From NCBI GenBank assembly GCA_903828695.1, contig CAIKNE010000009.1:1-64000 (forward strand): a stretch of DNA of 64,000 nt, given 5' to 3'. The DNA is from an uncultured Burkholderiales bacterium. GTDB lineage: Bacteria > Pseudomonadota > Gammaproteobacteria > Burkholderiales > Burkholderiaceae_C. The position numbers and the translations under genes were made by a program. Below the pieces are notes generated by a model. The model made no database searches and was not told the origin of the DNA. It was given only the letters and a program-made list of their open reading frames with translations. The first letter of the stretch is position 1. The number at the start of each line of letters is the position of its first letter. Positions 1-9,794 of this stretch are shown in pieces.

Positions 1-1
1 C

Positions 2-124
2 AACACACAAATTGTGACCTTAGTGGACGGAAAAATTGTCTACCGATCAGCAGAACAGCTTAAAAAGGAGCGAGAGCTCAATTCTCACCCAACTGTTTCA
101 ATTATTAGGACGATGGAATCATAA
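2..124 (+). CDS. C-terminal fragment, possible ABC transporter ATP-binding protein (5' end outside window)
   Basis: An open frame enters from the left edge and stops with TAA at 122-124. The 40 visible residues include TLVDGKIVYRSAEQLKKER, the kind of strand and charged helix that follows the H-loop in LolD/MacB-type ATPases. This family assignment rests on a short motif only. The last codons (ATG GAA TCA TAA) lie inside a sequence that matches the anticodon arm of a tRNA, so the natural C-terminus may have been replaced by tRNA-derived sequence. No catalytic motif is visible because the N-terminal part lies outside the window. Confidence 0.4.
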   Translation, partial: NTQIVTLVDGKIVYRSAEQLKKERELNSHPTVSIIRTMES

Positions 125-162
125 TCCACAGGTCCGCGGTTCGAATCCGTGAAGCGCCACCA
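113..162 (+). pseudogene. tRNA 3'-half remnant, CAU anticodon (copy 1)
   Basis: From 113 the sequence folds as the 3' half of a tRNA: anticodon stem 113-117/125-129 (four of five pairs), loop 118-124 with T33 and anticodon CAT at 120-122, variable loop 130-134, T-stem cgcgg/ccgtg around loop TTCGAAT (135-151), acceptor 3' strand aagcgcc, discriminator A and encoded CCA (152-162). The matching acceptor 5' strand (ggcgctt) and a D-arm are absent upstream, where coding sequence lies instead. The CAU anticodon fits elongator tRNA-Met or tRNA-Ile2. Remnants of this kind are left where integrases use the 3' end of a tRNA gene as attachment site. Confidence 0.7.
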
Positions 163-222
163 AATATACTCCTCCGGATAATAGGCTCTTTCCACTGAAA
201 TGCTAATCCGATGAAAAAAGTC

Positions 223-280
223 AGGCTCTACCCAATTAACGGGTATGGGCATTTATTAAAGGCTCTACCCAATTAACGGG
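223..280. repeat. 21-bp direct repeat pair beside the tRNA remnants
   Basis: The 21-mer aggctctacccaattaacgg(g) occurs at 223-243 and again at 260-280, 37 bp apart start to start. Read on the minus strand it contains aattgggtagagcc, which resembles the D-loop and 3' D-stem of a tRNA. The second copy directly abuts the second tRNA 3'-half remnant. The D-arm resemblance is an inference from a short match and could be chance, but the duplication itself is exact. Confidence 0.6.
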
Positions 281-282
281 GG

Positions 283-332
283 ATGGAATCATAATCCACA
301 GGTCCGCGGTTCGAATTCGTGAAGCGTAACCA
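283..332 (+). pseudogene. tRNA 3'-half remnant, CAU anticodon (copy 2)
   Basis: This is a direct copy of the remnant at 113-162, displaced by exactly 170 bp and identical from the base before the anticodon stem through the T-loop. It then carries one change in the T-stem (ccgtg to tcgtg, position 317) and two in the acceptor strand (gcgcca to gcgtaa, positions 327-328). These changes break the folding, so this copy looks older or unselected compared with copy 1. No 5' half precedes it. Confidence 0.7.
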
Positions 333-383
333 AATTATTTTCTAGCTTGTTGAATAATTTAGATCAATTCCATTAGACCCCTT

Positions 384-1949
384 TCACCAGTTCCCACCTA
401 AAGCCACGATTAAGCTAATGTGTGCGGAGATTCTTCTATTTTGAAGCGTCATTAGAATTCGCTCATTGTTCAGCTGAGTTACTTGGTTCGTAACAACAGT
501 TAAATAATTCACAATACCGGCCTTATATTGATTCAGTGCAATCCTTGTAGCACGCCTAGCACTGTCCACAGCGTGTGTTTGCTTGTCAATTTCGGCCTCA
601 AGTAACTTTACGGCAACCAAATTGTCTTCTACATTTTGAAAAGCACTCAGAACCGTTTGCCTGTAACTGGCAACGCTTTGATCATAAGCTGCATTTGCCT
701 GCTGCTTTGCTGCTAGGCGAGCACCCCCATCGAAAACAGCTAGGGCTGCGCTTGGACCAATAGCCCAGACTTTATTTGGGGCACTAATCAAGTTGGGTAA
801 AACAGCACTTTGGTACCCACCGGATGCGGAAATGATGGGCGTCGGAAAGAATGCTGCCTGTGCAACCCCAATCTTTGCGTTTGCAGCGTTCATTAAGCGT
901 TCTGCGCTGGCGATATCTGGTCTTCTCTCAAGGAGATGGGCAGGTAACCCTGGGGGCACTGGCGCTAGATGATCTAATACATGAGCTACTGAACTTACGT
1001 AAGCATTGGTATCGTTTGAGAACTCTATTTTTTCAGGGGTTAGGGAAAACTTTGAAGGTGATTCACCGACCAAGACGGCAATAGCGTGCTCTAGTTGAGC
1101 GCGTGTCACGTTAATGTCAATCGCAAGTGCTTCAGTTGATTGGAGGAGTGTTTGAGCTTCGCTTAAATCAAGTTGCGAGGCGACTCCCATTTTGAATTGA
1201 TTTTCAGTAATCTTAAATGACTTTTTGTAGGCCTCAACCGTATCGTCATACATCTGTTTTTGAACATCTGTAATTCGCAATTGGAAGTAACTCTGTGCAA
1301 GGGTGGACCGCGTTGACAAAAGAGCGCCTTCTAGACTCGCCGCACTTGCCTGCGCGTTGGCTTTATTGGCTTCAACTGATCTACGTATTCCCCCCCATAA
1401 GTCGGGCTCCCAGCTGGCAGATAGACCGGCACTTTGGAATTTATTGGATACTGCCCCCCCCCTTCCTGAAGCGGCTTCTAAATTGAGATTAGGAAAAAGT
1501 CCTGCCTGCGCCGCATCCACCAACGCCCTAGCCTGGCGGTACTGAGCCTCGGCAGCAATAATGTTTTGGTTGTTAACGCTTACCTTTTGCATTAATCCGT
1601 TCAGTACAGGATCTTTATAAATCTCCCACCAAGCTCCTTTGGGTTGATTGTCTCTAGGTTCAGCGGATTTCCAGTTTTCAGTTTCCTTATAAGCCTCAGG
1701 TACTGGTGCACTAGGTTTGACGTAATCAGGACCGACCATGCAACCTGCTAATAACAATGCTGCCATTAAAGGCAACGCATTTGATCGAAGTATCAATTTA
1801 GATAACAAAACCTTACATTGACTCCCTTGACTCTGTGCAAACCATACAAGTGATAGATTGGGATGGGCATGATTAAACTTGGCATTCGATCGCAGCTTAA
1901 GCATCACGCTCGCGAGTAGCACTTTAACTTGGATAGTGACACTATTCAT
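384..1949 (-). CDS. RND efflux outer-membrane lipoprotein, NodT/OprM family
   Basis: This is the outer-membrane channel of a tripartite RND pump and the last gene of the mdtA-mdtB-mdtC operon. Two outer membrane efflux protein repeats fill the mature part, with the family motifs PDYVKP just after the lipobox and ERRPDIASAERLMNAANA in the middle. A lipobox LLAGC places the lipidated cysteine at residue 70. The ATG at 1949 overlaps the mdtC stop (ATGA) and has GGAG upstream, which suggests translational coupling. It leaves about 47 extra residues before a normal signal peptide; a TTG at 1808 would give a standard lipoprotein signal (MLSKLILRSNALPLMAALLL) instead. The extension carries a diverged copy of KVLLxxxLxLRSNA. 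A run of nine G on the coding strand lies at 1454-1462. Confidence 0.9.
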   Translation of the reverse strand: MNSVTIQVKVLLASVMLKLRSNAKFNHAHPNLSLVWFAQSQGSQCKVLLSKLILRSNALPLMAALLLAGCMVGPDYVKPSAPVPEAYKETENWKSAEPRDNQPKGAWWEIYKDPVLNGLMQKVSVNNQNIIAAEAQYRQARALVDAAQAGLFPNLNLEAASGRGGAVSNKFQSAGLSASWEPDLWGGIRRSVEANKANAQASAASLEGALLSTRSTLAQSYFQLRITDVQKQMYDDTVEAYKKSFKITENQFKMGVASQLDLSEAQTLLQSTEALAIDINVTRAQLEHAIAVLVGESPSKFSLTPEKIEFSNDTNAYVSSVAHVLDHLAPVPPGLPAHLLERRPDIASAERLMNAANAKIGVAQAAFFPTPIISASGGYQSAVLPNLISAPNKVWAIGPSAALAVFDGGARLAAKQQANAAYDQSVASYRQTVLSAFQNVEDNLVAVKLLEAEIDKQTHAVDSARRATRIALNQYKAGIVNYLTVVTNQVTQLNNERILMTLQNRRISAHISLIVALGGNW

Positions 1950-4900
1950 TTTCTTTTACTCCAAAGACGAAGTCTGTCCATATACAGATAGATCACAGGG
2001 GTGGTGTAAAGAGTTAAGATTTGACTGAGCACCAAACCACCCACGATCGAAAGCCCCAAGGGTCTTCTAAACTCTGCACCGTCACCCGCACCGAGAGCAA
2101 GGGGAACAGCACCCAAAATAGCAGCCACAGTGGTCATCAAAATGGGTCTAAATCTAAGCAAACAAGCTTTGTTCACGGCGTCAAGCGCACTTAATTTCTC
2201 ATCCCTTTGCGCAGTTATGGCGTAATCAATCATCATAATTGCATTTTTCTTGACAATCCCAATAAGCAAAATGACACCAATCATAGCAATCACATTAAAT
2301 TCGGTGTTAAAGAACATAAGTGCCAATAAAGCACCAATCCCCGCGGATGGAAGAGTCGATAAAATGGTGAGGGGGTGAATTAAACTCTCGTACAAGATAC
2401 CCAATACGATATAAACGGTTATCAATGCAGCCAGTATCAGCATAGGTTGACTCTTTAAGGAGTCCTGAAAGGCCAGTGCTGTCCCCTGAAACCCACCCCT
2501 TACTGTATCAGGGACATGTAAGCGCTCAAACATCGCTGTAATTGCATCGGACGCCGTACCAAGGGAGACGCCAGGAGGTAAGTTAAAGGAAATAGTGGTC
2601 GCTGCAAATTGTCCCTGGTGATTTACAACTAATGCAGTATTTGTCATCCTGAAATTTGCAAACGCACTGAGAGGCACCTTTGCATTTGGATTTTTGCCCA
2701 TGTTCAAAGTGGGGGACACGCTCGCTGAGGAAGCCGATTGAGCTGCGCCCACAGCGAACGAGGATGAGTTGGGTACAGACGTACTAAAGTACATTTGATT
2801 CAAAATTTCCGGACTTTGCCAGTACTTGGGTGCAACCTCCAGCACTACGTGGTATTGGTTGAGTGGATTAAATATTGTGGACACCTGAGTCTGGCCAAAA
2901 GCATAACCAAGGGTGCTGTCAATAATGCTCGGGGTCAAGCCGTACTTTGCAGCGGCTTCTCTGTTAATCGTAAGCGTAGTTTGTAGACCCTTGTCCTGTG
3001 CGTCAGTATTGACATCAATCAGTTCGGGAAGATCCATCATTGCAAAGCGGATCTTAGGGCCCCAGGCTCTCAGCTCATTCAAGTTATCACTGAGTAACGT
3101 GAATTGATACAACGCACTATTACCTCTACCTCCAATACGGATATCTTGAACAGGTTGAAGAAAAAGAGTTGCACCTGCTATTGAGCTAAGCTTTTTGCGC
3201 AAGCTCCCCACAACCTCATCCATCGGAGCGCGCTCGGCTATTGGTTTAAGGGATATAAAAACGTTACCCGTATTGCGCTGTCCGCCCCCTGTAAAACTAA
3301 TGACGTCTTTGACATTGGGGTCCTTCATGACAATCTCAGTCATCTTTGCCATTTTCAGTTGTAAAGCTTGAAAGGATATGTCTTGATCAGCCTGGATATT
3401 GCCAATCAACCTACCCGTATCTTGCTGAGGGAAAAACCCCTTTGGAATAATGACGTACAGGTAGACATTAAAGCAAATGGTACCCAAAAAAATGAGTAAC
3501 GTAATCCTTCTGTGACGCATTGCAACGCCCAAGGATCTTTTGTACTGATGTAAAAGTGCGTTGAATACCGAGTTTGTGAATTTGGAGAACCCCTTGATCG
3601 ACTCTTTTGAATGAGCCCTCAACATACGAGAACACAACATCGGCGTAGCGGTGAGGGATATTAGAAGCGATACACTAATCGCTACCGATAGTGTTATTGC
3701 AAACTCTCTAAACAGTCTGCCTACGATGCCACCCATTAACAATATGGGTATAAACACAGCAATCAGAGAAAGACTGATGGATAGAACAGTGAAACCTACC
3801 TCCTTAGCACCCTGAAGCGCTGCTTCAAAGGGTTTTTGTCCATTCTCCACTCGCCTTGAAATAGCTTCTAAAACAACAATAGCATCGTCTACTACAAATC
3901 CGGTCGCAATGGTGAGCGCCATGAGCGATAAATTGTTGAGTGAAAACTTAAAGAGATACATCACTCCAAAAGTTCCAATGAGGGATACGGGAACAGCAAT
4001 GCTTGGAATAAAAGTAGCCCTCGCATTACCTAAAAAGAGGAATACAACCAGAACAACCAAGGACGTAGAGATGAGCAAAGTTTTCTCAACCTCATGTAAA
4101 GAGGCTTTGATCGTTGGCGTGCGGTCGATGGGAAAACCAATATCAATCGCTGCAGGAATAGAGGCCCTCAGTATAGGCATCGTTTCTTTAACACGGTCGA
4201 CCGTTGCAATAATATTGGCCCCAGGTTGTCTAAACAGAACAATGAGTACTGCTGGCTTGGTGTTGGCAATACCTCCATTCCTGAGATCTTCAACAGAGTC
4301 CACTACCTCTGCAATATCGCTCAACCGAACCGCTGCTTTATTACGGTAAGCAATAATCACAGGCTGATAATCCTTAGCGCGTTTAGCTTGATCGTTTGTT
4401 AAGATCTGCCAACTCTTATCCCCACTATCAAATATGCCTTTAGGACGGTTGGCGTTTGCTGAGGCGATCGCAGCACTCACATCAGCGAATCCAATATTAT
4501 TTTGGGTCATGAGTTTGGGATCAACCTCTACCCGCACACCGGGTAGTGAGCTCCCACCAATGCTCACTTGTCCAATGCCCTTAACCTGGGCTAACTTTTG
4601 TGCCATGACAGTTGAGGCCACATCGTACAAGGCAGCCCTAGTCATAGTGTCCGATGTCAAACTCAGTATTAATATTGGAGCGTCAGCGGGGTTAACTTTT
4701 CTATAGGTAGGATTAATAGGCAGTCCGGTTGGTAAAAGCGCGTGTGCTGCATTGATAGCAGCTTGGACATCATTGGCAGCACCGTCGATGCTTCTGCTCA
4801 AATCAAACTGAATCACAATATTCGTATTACCCAGAGTACTCGTTGAGGTCATCTCTGTGATTCCAGCAATGCGCCCGAGCGCACGCTCTAGGGGAGTTGC

Positions 4901-5089
4901 CACTGTGGAGGCCATCGTCTCTGGACTTGCACCAGGCAAACCAGCCCTAACCTGAATGGTTGGAAACTCAACCTGAGGCAAGGGAGCCACAGGTAAAAGC
5001 AAAAACGCAAGTGCACCTGACAAAGCAATCGCAACAGTCATCAAAGTCGTTGCAATTGGCCGGTTAATAAAGGGCTTAGAAATACTCAT
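1946..5089 (-). CDS. mdtC: RND multidrug efflux transporter, MdtC-like inner-membrane subunit
   Basis: A 1047-residue AcrB/MdtC-type proton antiporter, full length for the family. The N-terminus SKPFINRPIATTLMTVAIAL is the first transmembrane helix. The central motif [20 protein letters not shown] holds the paired aspartates of TM4 that carry protons, and TM10 carries [14 protein letters not shown], typical of the MdtB/MdtC branch. Two large periplasmic loops give the porter and docking domains. It is separated from mdtB by 122 bp, wider than the other gaps of the operon, and overlaps the outer-membrane gene by 4 bp. In Escherichia coli MdtB and MdtC form a B2C heterotrimer that exports bile salts, novobiocin and similar compounds; substrates here are unknown. 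Confidence 0.93.
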   Translation of the reverse strand: MSISKPFINRPIATTLMTVAIALSGALAFLLLPVAPLPQVEFPTIQVRAGLPGASPETMASTVATPLERALGRIAGITEMTSTSTLGNTNIVIQFDLSRSIDGAANDVQAAINAAHALLPTGLPINPTYRKVNPADAPILILSLTSDTMTRAALYDVASTVMAQKLAQVKGIGQVSIGGSSLPGVRVEVDPKLMTQNNIGFADVSAAIASANANRPKGIFDSGDKSWQILTNDQAKRAKDYQPVIIAYRNKAAVRLSDIAEVVDSVEDLRNGGIANTKPAVLIVLFRQPGANIIATVDRVKETMPILRASIPAAIDIGFPIDRTPTIKASLHEVEKTLLISTSLVVLVVFLFLGNARATFIPSIAVPVSLIGTFGVMYLFKFSLNNLSLMALTIATGFVVDDAIVVLEAISRRVENGQKPFEAALQGAKEVGFTVLSISLSLIAVFIPILLMGGIVGRLFREFAITLSVAISVSLLISLTATPMLCSRMLRAHSKESIKGFSKFTNSVFNALLHQYKRSLGVAMRHRRITLLIFLGTICFNVYLYVIIPKGFFPQQDTGRLIGNIQADQDISFQALQLKMAKMTEIVMKDPNVKDVISFTGGGQRNTGNVFISLKPIAERAPMDEVVGSLRKKLSSIAGATLFLQPVQDIRIGGRGNSALYQFTLLSDNLNELRAWGPKIRFAMMDLPELIDVNTDAQDKGLQTTLTINREAAAKYGLTPSIIDSTLGYAFGQTQVSTIFNPLNQYHVVLEVAPKYWQSPEILNQMYFSTSVPNSSSFAVGAAQSASSASVSPTLNMGKNPNAKVPLSAFANFRMTNTALVVNHQGQFAATTISFNLPPGVSLGTASDAITAMFERLHVPDTVRGGFQGTALAFQDSLKSQPMLILAALITVYIVLGILYESLIHPLTILSTLPSAGIGALLALMFFNTEFNVIAMIGVILLIGIVKKNAIMMIDYAITAQRDEKLSALDAVNKACLLRFRPILMTTVAAILGAVPLALGAGDGAEFRRPLGLSIVGGLVLSQILTLYTTPVIYLYMDRLRLWSKRK

Positions 5090-5211
5090 AGTAAGGTGCT
5101 TCGTTTACAGAATCATTGAAGCACTGAACCTAGCATCTTTTCCGCTTAAAAAAGTTGCAAGGAGTTTGAATGGATTTGAAGGTTCAGTCCACAATAATGC
5201 GTATAAGCTGC

Positions 5212-8200
5212 TCAAGCTTGCCCACCTATTTCCCCTTCCTTGAAGCGTCTGGACAGACGATCAAAGGCAAGATAAATAATGGGAGTAGTGTAAAGAGTTA
5301 AGAGCTGACTCAAAAGTAGCCCACCTACCATCGTTATACCCAAGGGATGTCGAAGCTCTGAACCAACCCCAGTACCTAGCATAAGCGGCAGCGCGCCCAG
5401 GAGTGCAGCCATTGTTGTCATCAAAATTGGCCTAAGTCTGAGCATGCACGCCTCAAAAATGGCGTCTCTAGGAGACTTTTTCTCAATGCGCTCTGCGTCA
5501 AGCGCAAAGTCAATCATCATGATGGCGTTTTTCTTAACAATACCAATCAATAAAATGATTCCAATAATCCCGATGATTCCCAAATCATTCCCCGAGATGA
5601 TCAAAGCAAGTAAAGCTCCCACCCCTGCTGAGGGTAGCGTTGAGAGAATTGTCAGCGGATGGATATAGCTTTCGTAGAGCACGCCTAGGACGATGTACAT
5701 TGTCAACACCGCTGCGAGTATGAGCCACAAAGTATTGGTAAGTGAAGCGCTAAATGCCTGCGCTGCACCTTGGTACCTAGTCACAACGCTAGTAGGCACT
5801 CTAATATCTTCTTGAGCCGCGTTAATGGCCTTCACAGCGTCACCTAAGGAGTAGCCCTTTGCTAAATCAAAAGAGATGGATGACGATGGAAACTGGCCTT
5901 GATGGTTAACGCTCAGTAAGCCGTACTGCTCCTCAACATGAGCCAGTGCTTTCAGTTGCACTTGTTGACCGTTTGAAGAAGGCACATAAATATCATTCAA
6001 TACGTTTATACCGATCTCTTTACTCTTCTTAGCCTCTAGAACAACCCGGTATTGATTGGTTTGGGTAAAAATAGTTGAAATCAATCGCTGGCCGTAGGCG
6101 TTATAAAGCGCATTATCAATTGCCGCCACAGTTACACCTAAGCGCGCTGCATCGTCGCGGTGAATAACAACATACGCTTGCAAACCACGATTTTGATAAT
6201 CAGAGGTTACATTCAAGAGCTCTGGCAGAGTTGATAGTTTGTCAACAATCTGAGGCACCCACTCCTCCAGTTCACTAGCTATTGCACTCTCAACTGTAAA
6301 CTGATACTGCGTTCTGCTGATATGGTCCTCAATGGTTAAATCCTGAGAGGCTTGCAAGTACAGTTTGATGTTTGGAATCTGATCGACTTGGTCTTGAATT
6401 CTGTGAAGAATTTTTTGTATGTTGTCCCTTTGGTTGTGTGGCTTGAGGTTAATCAAGATCCGTCCGTTATTGAGGGTAGTGTTCACGCCGTCAACACCGA
6501 TAAAACTAGACAAACTCTCAACATCAGGATCCTGCAATATTACTTTTGCAAGGTCTTGTTGAAAGCCTGCCATCGCAGAGTAGGAAACACTTTGAGAGGC
6601 CTCTGTGATGCCTTGAATAACGCCGGTGTCTTGTGTTGGAAAAAATCCCTTAGGAATGAACACGTACAAACCCACAGTCATCAGTAAAGTGGCGAAAACA
6701 ACCGCCAAGACTTGTCTGGGCCTATCAAGGGCCCAACTGAGGGTCGTGCCGTAATGTTTGATCAACTGGCTGAACATCTGGGCTGTCTTTTTAGAAAATG
6801 CAGTCTGCTCAGCCTCGGGTATGTGCTTTAAAAGCTTGGAGGACATCATCGGAGTCAGTGTGAGCGAGACCACTGCGGAGATGATGATTGATACTGCCAG
6901 CGTGATTGCAAACTCTCTAAAGAGTCTTCCAACCACATCGCCCATAAAAATAAGTGGGATCAATACTGCAATCAAAGAAATAGTGAGGGAGATGATCGTA
7001 AAGCCAATTTGCTTGGAGCCCTTTAAGGCTGCCTCTAAAGCGCCTTCCCCCTCCTCAATGTAGCGCGAAATATTCTCAATCATCACAATCGCATCATCCA
7101 CCACAAATCCTGTTGCAATGGTAAGCGCCATGAGTGAGAGATTATTCAACGAAAAACCAGACAAGTACATAACCGCAAAAGTCCCGATCAGCGACAGCGG
7201 TACTGCAACCCCTGGAATAATGGTTGCATAGACATTGCCCAAAAATGCATAAATCACAAGAACCACTAAAACGACTGCAAAAAGGAGCTCAATTTCCACA
7301 TCCTCTACAGATGCACGGATCGTGGTAGTCCGGTCCGTTAGCAGTTTGACATCAACACTGGATGGCATCGTAGAGGAGATTATTGGCAAGAGCTTTTTAA
7401 TTCGGTTAACCACTTCAATCACATTGGCACCAGGCTGCCTTTGGATGTTGACGATCACCGCTGGTTCTCCGTTGCTCCAAGCACCCAATCTAACATTCTC
7501 GGGTGCATCCTCTACCGTAGCAACATCCGACAAATGAATGGGCGCGCCGTTTTTAAAAGCAATAATTTGCTTGCTGTATTCAGGTGCAGTCTTTAATTGA
7601 TCATTGGCATCAATGGTTGAAGCTCGCTCCGGACCGTCAAAACTTCCCTTTGATGAGTTGACGTTAGCGTTCGCAACTGCAGTGCGTACATCATCCAAAC
7701 TTAAACCGATATCTGCAAGTAACTTTGGATTCGCCTGAATTCTGATGGCAGGCCTTTGTCCACCAGACAAACTGACTAATCCAACCCCTGGGAGTTGGGA
7801 GATTTTCTGGGCCATCCTCGTATCAACCAAATCCTCAACTTTCGTTAAAGGTATGGTTTTGGAGCTGATGGCGAGCGTAATGACGGGTGCATCTGCGGGA
7901 TTGACTTTAGAGTAAATGGGTGGAGCAGGCAAATCGGAGGGCAAAAGGGAGCTTGCAGCGTTGATAGCTGCTTGCACCTCTTGCTCAGCCACGTCCAGGC
8001 TAATATCCAAACTAAACTGTAAAACGATAACGGACGCTCCACCAGAACTGGTTGAGGACATCTGGTTTAAGCCCGGCATCTGACCAAACTGCCGCTCCAA
8101 GGGAGCGGTAATGGAGGAGGTCATCACATCTGGGCTACCACCGGGGTACAGAGTTGCGACCTGAATAGTTGGGTAGTCCACCTCTGGCAAAGAGGAGACG

Positions 8201-8298
8201 GGTAACAACTTATAGGCGATGATCCCCGCCAACATAATCGCCACCATGAGTAGCGATGTCGCAACTGGGCGAAGTATGAATATGCGCGAGGGATTCAT
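5212..8298 (-). CDS. mdtB: RND multidrug efflux transporter, MdtB-like inner-membrane subunit
   Basis: A 1028-residue RND transporter, paralogous to the mdtC product downstream. It begins [20 protein letters not shown], the first membrane helix, and has the TM4 proton-relay aspartates in [20 protein letters not shown] and the TM10 segment [14 protein letters not shown]. The start ATG overlaps the mdtA stop by 4 bp (ATGA), so the adaptor and this subunit are translationally coupled. The pairing of two different RND subunits in tandem is the signature of MdtABC-type pumps rather than AcrAB-type homotrimeric ones. The naming of this copy as B and the next as C follows gene order, not a phylogeny. 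Confidence 0.93.
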
Positions 8299-9794
8299 GG
8301 CGCTTCTTTAGATACTTTGCTTTTGTCCCACTTTTCTGATTTATCTGCTTTGTCTGGTTTTTCAATCTTTGCCCCAGAACCGGAAGGGGCGGCTTCAGGT
8401 GCTGGCGCAGCGGAGTTGGAGGATGCTTTATCGCCTGCTTGGTTAGCACCCTTATCAGGGCTTTTATCAGCGGGGTCACCCGGCTTCTTGCCCCGACCAC
8501 CGCCAGGGCGAGCGGCCTCGCCGATCACGATATTTGCACCCTCGCGCAGCTTATCTAAACCATCAATAACAATTTTGTCTCCAGGATTTAGGCCCGACTC
8601 GACCAAAATTTTGTCCTCATCAGTAGGGCCAAGCTTGACCGGGACAACCGACACGGTCTTGCCGTCCTCATTGACTCTGTACACAAAGGTCCCAATAGTA
8701 CCCTTTTGCATCGCAGTTGCAGGCATATAGACCGCGTCTTTCCTGACGTCAAGAATAGACTTTACATTAACAAACTGATTGGCAAAAAGCGTACCCTTGG
8801 CGTTGGGAAAAAGTGCTCTTAGTTTGACAGTACCTGTTGTTAAATCTATGACGTTATCAATGCTATCCAATCGACCTTTGTCCAAAATTGCCTTGTTATC
8901 ACTGTCCCAAGCCTCGATTTCCACCGGTTTCGCGGGACTACCCCTCTCTTTTGAGCCGCCGTTATCACCTCCGAAGCTTTTGCCACCCGGACCGCCCCCA
9001 GCAACCCCGTTGAAATTGGTTGCATCCAAGGTAGGGTTTAGCTTTTTTAAGTAGGTGCTTAGCAAATTCTGTGGGACCGCAAAGATCACAGTTGTTGGGC
9101 TAACCTGAGTGATAACGAACAAGGGAGTTGAGTTATTGGCTTGAACCAAGTTACCCGGATCGACTTGGCGTAGACCAATGCGTCCCGAAATGGGGGCACT
9201 AATTCTGGCGTATTCCACCTGAAGTTTGGCCGCATCAACCAAGCCCTGATCGGTGAGCACACTCCCCCTGTATTGATCAGTCAGAGCTCTTTGCGTGTCA
9301 AAGACCTGAGCTGAAACAGATTCTTGCGCAATCAATGTTTCATAGCGTTTTAGATCCGTCTCAGCATTTCGCAGTAAGTTTTTATCGCGCTCCAATGCCC
9401 CCTGGGCTTGTTTTAAAGTCGCCTCATAAGATCTGGGGTCTATTTGCGCAAGTACTTGCCCAGCCTTAACTGACTCGCCTTCCTTAAAAAAGACACTGGT
9501 CAATACACCGCCAACTTGGGGATAAACCGTCACGCTGTTTCGTGGGATAACTGTTCCAAGAGCATTCAAGCTAACTGTGATATCGCCCTTTTTAACTTCT
9601 CCGACTACGACCGACACAGGGCGATTTTTGGAGCCCATGCGTTTGTCATTATCTGGCTCCCCTTTGGTTGAGAAATAAAACCAAGCACCTCCAGCAAGCC
9701 CTGCCAACACAAGAGTCCAAACAACTCGCTTGAAACCATTAGATTTGGTATTTAAACCTTTAACCGAGTCAAGCCCATTTCGAAAGAAAGCCAT
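8295..9794 (-). CDS. mdtA: RND efflux periplasmic adaptor, MdtA-like (HlyD/MFP family)
   Basis: First gene of the pump operon, linking the inner-membrane transporter to the outer-membrane channel. It has one N-terminal membrane anchor (residues about 23-43), a lipoyl half with [21 protein letters not shown], an alpha-helical hairpin, then the second lipoyl half with [20 protein letters not shown]. At 499 residues it is about 80 longer than E. coli MdtA. Two low-complexity parts explain this: a glycine-rich insert in the beta-barrel region (about residues 251-280) and a Lys/Asp/Pro/Ala-rich tail of about 75 residues at the C-terminus. AAGGG lies seven bases before the ATG. The upstream gap is shared with the divergent AAA ATPase gene. 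Confidence 0.92.

Follow-up and report, generated by a model that had tools for sequence, protein, structure and literature searches.

The window (the whole stretch of 64,000 nucleotides analysed here) starts at base 1 of contig C9 of a draft genome (G000), which comprises 3.02 Mb in 161 contigs and is 98% complete. Close to this edge, it carries a direct repeat of 54 nt (112–165 and 282–335, 94% identity, spacing of 170). When the 77-nt tRNA-Met(CAT) gene taken from the sister genome G045 was used as the reference for both copies, copy 1 (112–162, plus strand) matched tRNA nt 27–77, CCA included, at 51/51 positions. Copy 2 (282–332, plus strand) matched the same part at 48/51, with substitutions at nt 62, 72, and 73, i.e., in the T stem and the acceptor stem. 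The best other ungapped match, sought in the window from 341 on, reached 29/51 on the plus strand and 26/51 on the minus strand, and the maximum in 100 mononucleotide shuffles was 31/51. These counts bear out the sequence-only reading of this DNA, which had claimed two direct 51-bp tRNA 3′ halves 170 bp apart, with a CAU anticodon and an encoded CCA. ARAGORN called no tRNA over the window, and the Rfam tRNA model reached 21.6 bits at 94–151, under the gathering score of 29. The further claim that a 5′ half was lacking held for the window and failed for the genome, in which nt 1–39 of the tRNA are present on contig C27.

Sequence comparison identified positions 2–124 (plus strand) as the 3′ end of the second gene of a cassette, coding for the last 40 residues of a 75-aa partner of a zeta-type toxin; its TAA stop (122–124) falls within the anticodon loop of the tRNA half. 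Copy 1 was recognized as the right end of this toxin cassette by comparison with the G045 locus L067. The adjoining 163–223 (plus strand) aligned with the left end of a second toxin cassette, of which the leader and the first toxin codons (ATG at 211) remain. Window 105–223 was 96.6% identical to positions 20–138 of the cassette reference, and a search of window 1–400 in 41 genomes showed that 105–223 runs on beyond the tRNA half in relatives; the same 400 bp had no match in phage and plasmid records. Next on the plus strand, an 81-bp dispersed repeat is present in two truncated copies, at 224–260 (95% over repeat positions 1–38) and 261–286 (100% over positions 1–26), and the last five bases of the second one, GATGG, are also the first five of copy 2. 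The 21-bp repeat noticed earlier between the tRNA copies is real (223–243 and 260–280 are identical); its interpretation as a D-arm was discarded, as the 21 bp are the start of the dispersed repeat. Six matches of the dispersed repeat were found in the genome, two of them in the window and the others at C152:61–141, C88:36893–36973, C25:2291–2368, and C6:15721–15792. Three of these four outside copies lie approximately 25–136 bp downstream of tRNA genes (Cys, His, and Pro); the locus of the fourth lacks a tRNA.

Copy 2 stands before an RND-efflux-like operon, as in relatives, and is probably the old, displaced chromosomal 3′ half. The operon (384–9794, minus strand; ORFs 384–1949, 1946–5089, 5212–8298, and 8295–9794), labeled from the look of its proteins, is the right flank of the tRNA-Met site. 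The succession of a cassette end (2–124), a cassette start (163–223), and repeat copies (224–286) led us to read copies 1 and 2 as the right ends of two cassettes, the second being internally deleted. Hence, both origins suggested earlier fit: the 120 bp between the copies open with the first 61 bp of a cassette, in line with an element decayed to about 100 bp, and copy 1 doubles as the right end of a different cassette, in line with a tandem recombination scar.

Complete, partial, and repeat-free forms of the site were found in the genus. G045 and G019 both have an intact tRNA-Met with a module of about 0.8 kb (a zeta-toxin-like gene and the 75-aa partner gene) behind it and, next, a repeat of the tRNA 3′ part. 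The last 45 bp of this repeat equal the tRNA sequence in G045 and show 91% identity to it in G019, where the toxin gene is frameshifted. The G045 toxin (L067) starts 48 bp past the tRNA and scored 43.3 bits against PF06414 (zeta toxin), above the cut-off of 22.3. A like module is located between tRNA-Asn and its half in G008. Cassette starts follow an intact tRNA in G012 and G005, a cassette end with the half precedes the same RND-like operon in G086, and a bare half precedes it in G043. In G050, the partner end and a half precede another unit, which carries an AHSA1-domain gene (84.3 bits), and after it comes a tRNA-Met at 95% identity. G080 carries an intact tRNA-Met ahead of the RND-like operon and no second half; judged from gene order, it may be an empty site, its left side and intergenic stretch differing from those of the window. 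At G005:C9 (L184), the cassette match covers 183 bp including the tRNA and then gives way to a 576-aa ORF, which, from its look, we take to be perhaps a transposase. On the reverse strand of G086:C46 (L220, 3162–3701), a toxin ORF whose first part is unlike the usual P-loop start adjoins a 60-aa ORF on the other strand that is related to the C27 integrase, an arrangement that probably arose by a deletion joining an element and a cassette.

As in cassette islands, the tRNA is conserved, the cassettes end in a direct repeat of its 3′ part, and they vary among relatives. The complete, partial, and repeat-free sister sites support the earlier suggestion of an integrase-type scar at a tRNA 3′ end, the action of an integrase itself being what we infer. 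Altogether, 44 places with tRNA-Met or its parts were compared (40 stretches chosen for comparison, three earlier ones, and the window), and a pair of halves 170 bp apart occurred at none of the others, so the two copies are not a spacer fixed across relatives. Direct repeats resembling attL/attR were seen at the target gene in G045, G019, G008, Polynucleobacter parvulilacunae, P. brandtiae, and a P. meluiroseus MAG. As a control, the loci of 30 distinct tRNAs of G000 (up to 1.5 kb on each side) were inspected, and no second 3′ half was found in any. The partner gene was detected at 16 places in 61 genomes, the window included. A tRNA half lies downstream in five of them, overlapping the partner end in four and lying about 320 bp further in one; three of the 16 have a weak (78%), opposite-strand, or upstream tRNA piece, and eight have none. 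The cassette is near-identical between genomes that are otherwise diverged: window 1–111, the last 111 bp before the half, is 100% identical in G086 (111/111 bp), and the RND-like genes of the two genomes show 71% (1246 bp) and 76% (1441 bp) identity.

Contig C27 carries, in order, a TetR-like gene, a small gene (both named by look), tRNA nt 1–39, and a 443-aa tyrosine-recombinase-like ORF. The left-flank genes of C27 recur in three other places compared (the same place on two G012 contigs and one of G043), and the cluster of the first ORF of the window's operon lies to the right of tRNA-Met or its 3′ half in four (G080:C87, G043:C53, G019:C10, and G086:C46); in G019, another ORF of 667 aa stands between the tRNA-Met part and the operon. 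Most of the other places compared have different flanks on both sides of tRNA-Met. No contig among them carries the exact C27 left flank together with the RND-like operon; one G019 contig has a homologue of a C27 gene (62% over 322 aa) to the left of tRNA-Met and the window's operon to the right. Because of the matching halves and the G019 contig with both sides, C27 and the window are read as what would be two sides of one locus. The break after nt 39 occurs also in G042 and G050, with an intact tRNA-Met elsewhere in G042, and a diverged 5′ half is present in G086.

A group I intron splitting the C27 tRNA was considered and rejected, as Rfam gave none in L110 at gathering scores. Such an intron (RF00028, 56.7 bits) was observed in a different CAT tRNA, at G086:C23 (L166:1073–1290), upstream of an integrase homologue, and in G049:C2 (L176) this other CAT tRNA has a 211-bp gap, under the Rfam cut-off, and an extra 5′ half.

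A split tRNA-Met would mean the loss of an essential gene unless a second copy exists, and no intact tRNA-Met was found in the G000 assembly, nor in that of G086. The sequence-only reading had held that such an absence would count against it; the absence is literal in the draft assembly, but the 5′ half is present and the sequence is broken into 161 contigs. In the Rfam search of the assembly, in which 150 of 177 candidates were scored, at least 32 tRNAs exceeded the cut-off. Among 30 typed tRNAs, there was no Asn, no Phe, and only one CAT type, which, from its features, is presumably initiator-like. Since Met, Asn, and Phe tRNAs all occur beside integrases in the genus, their joint absence suggests that arrays were not assembled properly, and not that essential genes were lost. 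The assembly also lacks the remainder of the toxin gene that begins in the window, having only a 62% homologue on C70. Contigs ending within about 25 bp of tRNA-Met were also noted at G005:C9, G010:C46, G083:C13, G024:C240, G001:C67, and G014:C39; contig ends at this gene in several drafts are a sign of variable or repeated sequence.

An integrase inside the element, the mark of a classic tRNA island, is present in the C27 element and absent from the toxin cassettes examined. The same-strand ORFs between the tRNA and the half code for the toxin, the partner, and, in the Lys cassettes, a VbhA-like protein, with no genes for integration or transfer. Of the earlier idea of an integrase element at the repeats, the part that stood is the integrase-like gene, located on the C27 side only; the repeats themselves hold an integrase-less toxin cassette. 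The 443-aa ORF of C27 scored 21.6 bits against PF00589 (below the cut-off of 27.1) and 16.5 bits against TIGR02249 (integrase_gron, cut-off 265), and so does not qualify as an IntI-type enzyme. Its homologues (E ≤ 1e-30) were found in 23 of 84 genomes of the genus, none in G045 with its intact cassette; G019 has one partial homologue. The 30 integrase loci of the genus comprised 15 with an intact tRNA (Lys, Cys, Asn, or Leu), four with a bare 3′ half, four with a 5′ piece, two with other pieces, and five with none. A helper integrase at the same tRNA in hosts outside the genus was sought and rejected: ten homologues were found in four of eight genomes, at loci without tRNA-Lys, tRNA-Arg, or tRNA-Met, and ARAGORN found there only tRNA-Phe, in two.

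Several bare halves start at nt 32–33, within the anticodon loop, with non-tRNA sequence to the left (Met in G010, G072, and G002; Asn in G062 and G008; Lys in G061). Williams reportedly described in 2002 a class of integrases that cross over in the tRNA anticodon loop, and bare halves starting there are what would be expected of such enzymes. The repeats of the cassettes start at nt 24 (Arg), nt 27 (Met), and about nt 40 (Lys), so no single fixed crossover point is shown. In G008, 27/33 bp are shared between the right end of the toxin/Asn cassette and that of a further element at a tRNA-Asn half (1000 shuffles reached at most 20), and this further element stops just before an integrase-bearing element at the tRNA-Asn half. 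Inspected by eye, the right end of the toxin/Met cassette lacks the motif common to the tRNA-Asn ends. In G062 (C7, 299304–439267), three related integrases, apparently of tandem islands, are spread over 140 kb, the first after an intact tRNA-Asn and the last after a bare tRNA-Asn 3′ half.

The module was also found outside the genus. Among 80 named loci, the best 80 of 539 retrieved with the toxin alignment, eight had a tRNA piece downstream of the toxin on the same strand, and five of the eight had an intact tRNA upstream too; bare halves were sought with a tRNA pool drawn from relatives of the window, so that halves of other tRNAs may be missed. Lys pieces (nt 40–76 or 43–76) occurred in P. 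parvulilacunae, P. brandtiae, P. sphagniphilus, Polynucleobacter MWH-Berg-3C6, and a Gallionella MAG, and a betaproteobacterial MAG (L233, one of the five with an intact upstream tRNA) had only Lys nt 31–53. The module follows tRNA-Lys in P. parvulilacunae and P. brandtiae and tRNA-Met in an Alcaligenaceae MAG, in which the tRNA-Met piece is 89% identical. The P. meluiroseus MAG carries a tRNA-Arg cassette with a second Arg half 1.2 kb on, and the last codons and the stop of its partner gene lie inside the tRNA half; in the Lys form of P. parvulilacunae, the partner stop comes just before the half. The toxin starts 62 bp past the tRNA in the Arg case and roughly 170–330 bp past it in the Asn and Lys cassettes and in the Met cassette of the Alcaligenaceae MAG. 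In the Polynucleobacter Lys cassettes (L226:4789–4986 and L239:3102–3299), a third gene upstream of the zeta-type toxin codes for a homologue of the VbhA antitoxin (31.8 and 35.3 bits against PF18495, cut-off 25.9).

A tree was built of 48 toxins, i.e., 41 of the 80 named ones (best 80 of 539) and seven of the genus. Ten toxins in it are tRNA-flanked, and four label changes, at least three of them by supported branches, account for their distribution; label-shuffled trees needed 9.2 changes on average, and 0/500 were as low as four. In one supported clade, eight of nine rows are flanked (by Met, Lys, or Arg tRNA); for the ninth, the contig breaks off 102 bp past the toxin match. The G045 row sits on a long branch, and its placement is less sure. 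Rows L243 and L071 coincide at zero branch length, and the genus is likely one of Limnohabitans-like betaproteobacteria. The toxin alignment found no relative in viral_contigs. Toxin searches gave two distant relatives (26–27%) in phage records, 20 plasmid records (37–61% identity among the 12 matches listed), and P-loop matches only in the PDB, the longest to Pnkp1. The partner had no sequence relative in the PDB (best E 0.12), Met-type and Asn-type partners had no match in Pfam, NCBIfam, and PADLOC at the limits used, and a single-sequence structure model of the partner reached a mean pLDDT of 68.

Altogether, we consider it likely that the repeats are recombination scars at a tRNA-Met attachment site, left by toxin cassettes and an integrase-bearing element that inserted in or after the anticodon region. 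The unit would consist of a zeta-type toxin gene, its partner gene, and a tRNA 3′ half, each inserted cassette leaving a copy of the half at its own right end. The order would run from the chromosome through tRNA nt 1–39 on C27 and the integrase-bearing element into the assembly gap, within which the arrangement of elements is reconstructed tentatively. On the right, a toxin cassette ending in copy 1 would be followed by an internally deleted second cassette, copy 2, and the RND-like operon, with later deletions producing the 120-bp remnant. The cassettes were most likely moved in trans by a tyrosine integrase, which resident or passing elements would supply. Several results speak against this scenario: the cassettes examined have no integrase ORF, G045 lacks a homologue of the C27 integrase (E ≤ 1e-30), eight of the 16 partner-gene places are without a tRNA piece, the Asn motif is missing at the toxin/Met right end, the flanks of tRNA-Met differ widely, and the assembly lacks both the remaining toxin gene and an intact tRNA-Met. 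The toxin and the partner may form an addiction pair. A wider model is more speculative, and we think it somewhat doubtful: these would be minimal selfish cassettes, mainly of freshwater betaproteobacteria, moved by integrases in trans, switching between tRNAs, stacking in an integron-like manner, and sometimes splitting the tRNA gene, with the half doubling as recombination site and, for the Met and Arg types, as stop codon of the partner gene.

The strongest alternative treats the cassette as cargo at the right end of a large integrase island from C27, the short cassettes being CIME-like deletion products, carried along either through homologous exchange or by a subsequent island. The integrase-like gene at the 5′ half on C27 agrees with it, as do the G086 toxin ORF lacking a normal start beside the integrase-related ORF and the definition of CIMEs given in the relevant part of PMC5704250. 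Compact cassettes recur at four tRNAs in several genera, however, and many similar deletions would be needed, which leaves this explanation possible, if less probable than cassettes moved by integrases in trans. Recombination between homologous tRNA halves of 50 bp, by unequal crossing-over or DNA uptake and without any site-specific enzyme, could add, remove, and shorten cassettes; it would account for the lack of integrase genes in the cassettes examined, for a tRNA-Asn repeat that extends beyond CCA through a terminator-like stretch, and for the fusion of copy 2 to the dispersed repeat at GATGG, which looks like illegitimate recombination. We judge it improbable as the sole process because it leaves unexplained both the presence at Met, Lys, and Arg tRNAs of related cassettes whose halves fit the respective host gene and the start of several bare Met, Asn, and Lys halves at nt 32–33. 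Mis-joined reads as the source of the repeats or of the C27 split are very unlikely: the draft state of the assembly, the ends of both C27 and the window's contig at this point, and the lack of an intact tRNA-Met would fit such an artefact, but the same 5′ break in the separate assemblies of G042 and G050, the diverged 5′ half of G086, the match of the window's cassette end to G045 and G086, and the three differences between copies 1 and 2 argue against it.

Cassette islands linked to tRNA genes are known. Additive flexible genomic islands of Ca. Methylopumilus, 330 bp to 42 kb long, have recurring 20-bp tRNA-Lys repeats (PMC10872708), cassette ends of Ca. Actinomarinales bear tRNA-fragment repeats (PMC7771536), and a 52-nt tRNA-Leu repeat marks an island end in Alteromonas australica (PMC4119200). 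As described in those passages, cassettes are added at a tRNA and carry direct repeats of part of it, as here. The word "toxin" does not occur in the Ca. Methylopumilus paper (PMC10872708), and toxin–antitoxin systems are reported absent in the relevant part of the Ca. Actinomarinales paper (PMC7771536), whereas here the cassette consists of a lone toxin/partner module, found repeatedly at Met, Asn, Lys, and Arg tRNAs. Among the titles and abstract openings of the papers listed, no zeta-toxin cassette bounded by tRNA halves was found.

CIMEs, according to the relevant section of PMC5704250, lack integration and transfer genes, have attachment sites at both ends, and are stacked in tandem at one target gene, much like the integrase-less units described here, which are bounded by attachment-site-like repeats and stacked at one gene. 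The same section defines them as decayed ICEs or IMEs, whereas the present units are about 0.8–1.25 kb long with two or three small genes. The units may or may not descend from such larger elements: within the genus, the tRNAs concerned are also targets of related integrases, and right-end similarity was seen only at tRNA-Asn. Integron arrays without an integrase (CALINs) are described as movable in trans (PMC11389934) and resemble our arrays in their short tandem gene cassettes with a recombination site at each end; unlike in integrons, the repeated site is half a tRNA, and the integrase of G000 fails the integron-integrase model.

Tycheposons of Prochlorococcus (4–200 kb), reported at tRNA-Met in Methylophilaceae in the relevant passage of PMC10872708, share with this locus the tRNA-Met border and a tyrosine recombinase, but no such cargo element was seen on the window side. 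The disrupted tRNA gene in a Caldiarchaeum population, as outlined in PMC3293823, likewise left a 5′ fragment next to a recombinase gene; that case is archaeal, intron-linked, and concerns tRNA-Thr. Cassette scars such as those described here show one route by which half-tRNA debris arises in genomes. Excision, a helper integrase, and addiction could be tested directly in so small a two-gene cassette, which is complete, truncated, or absent at one tRNA and has been found at four tRNAs across several genera. Hence, the class is already known from CIMEs and additive tRNA cassette islands, and what is new is a recurrent toxin-only cassette that carries no integrase.
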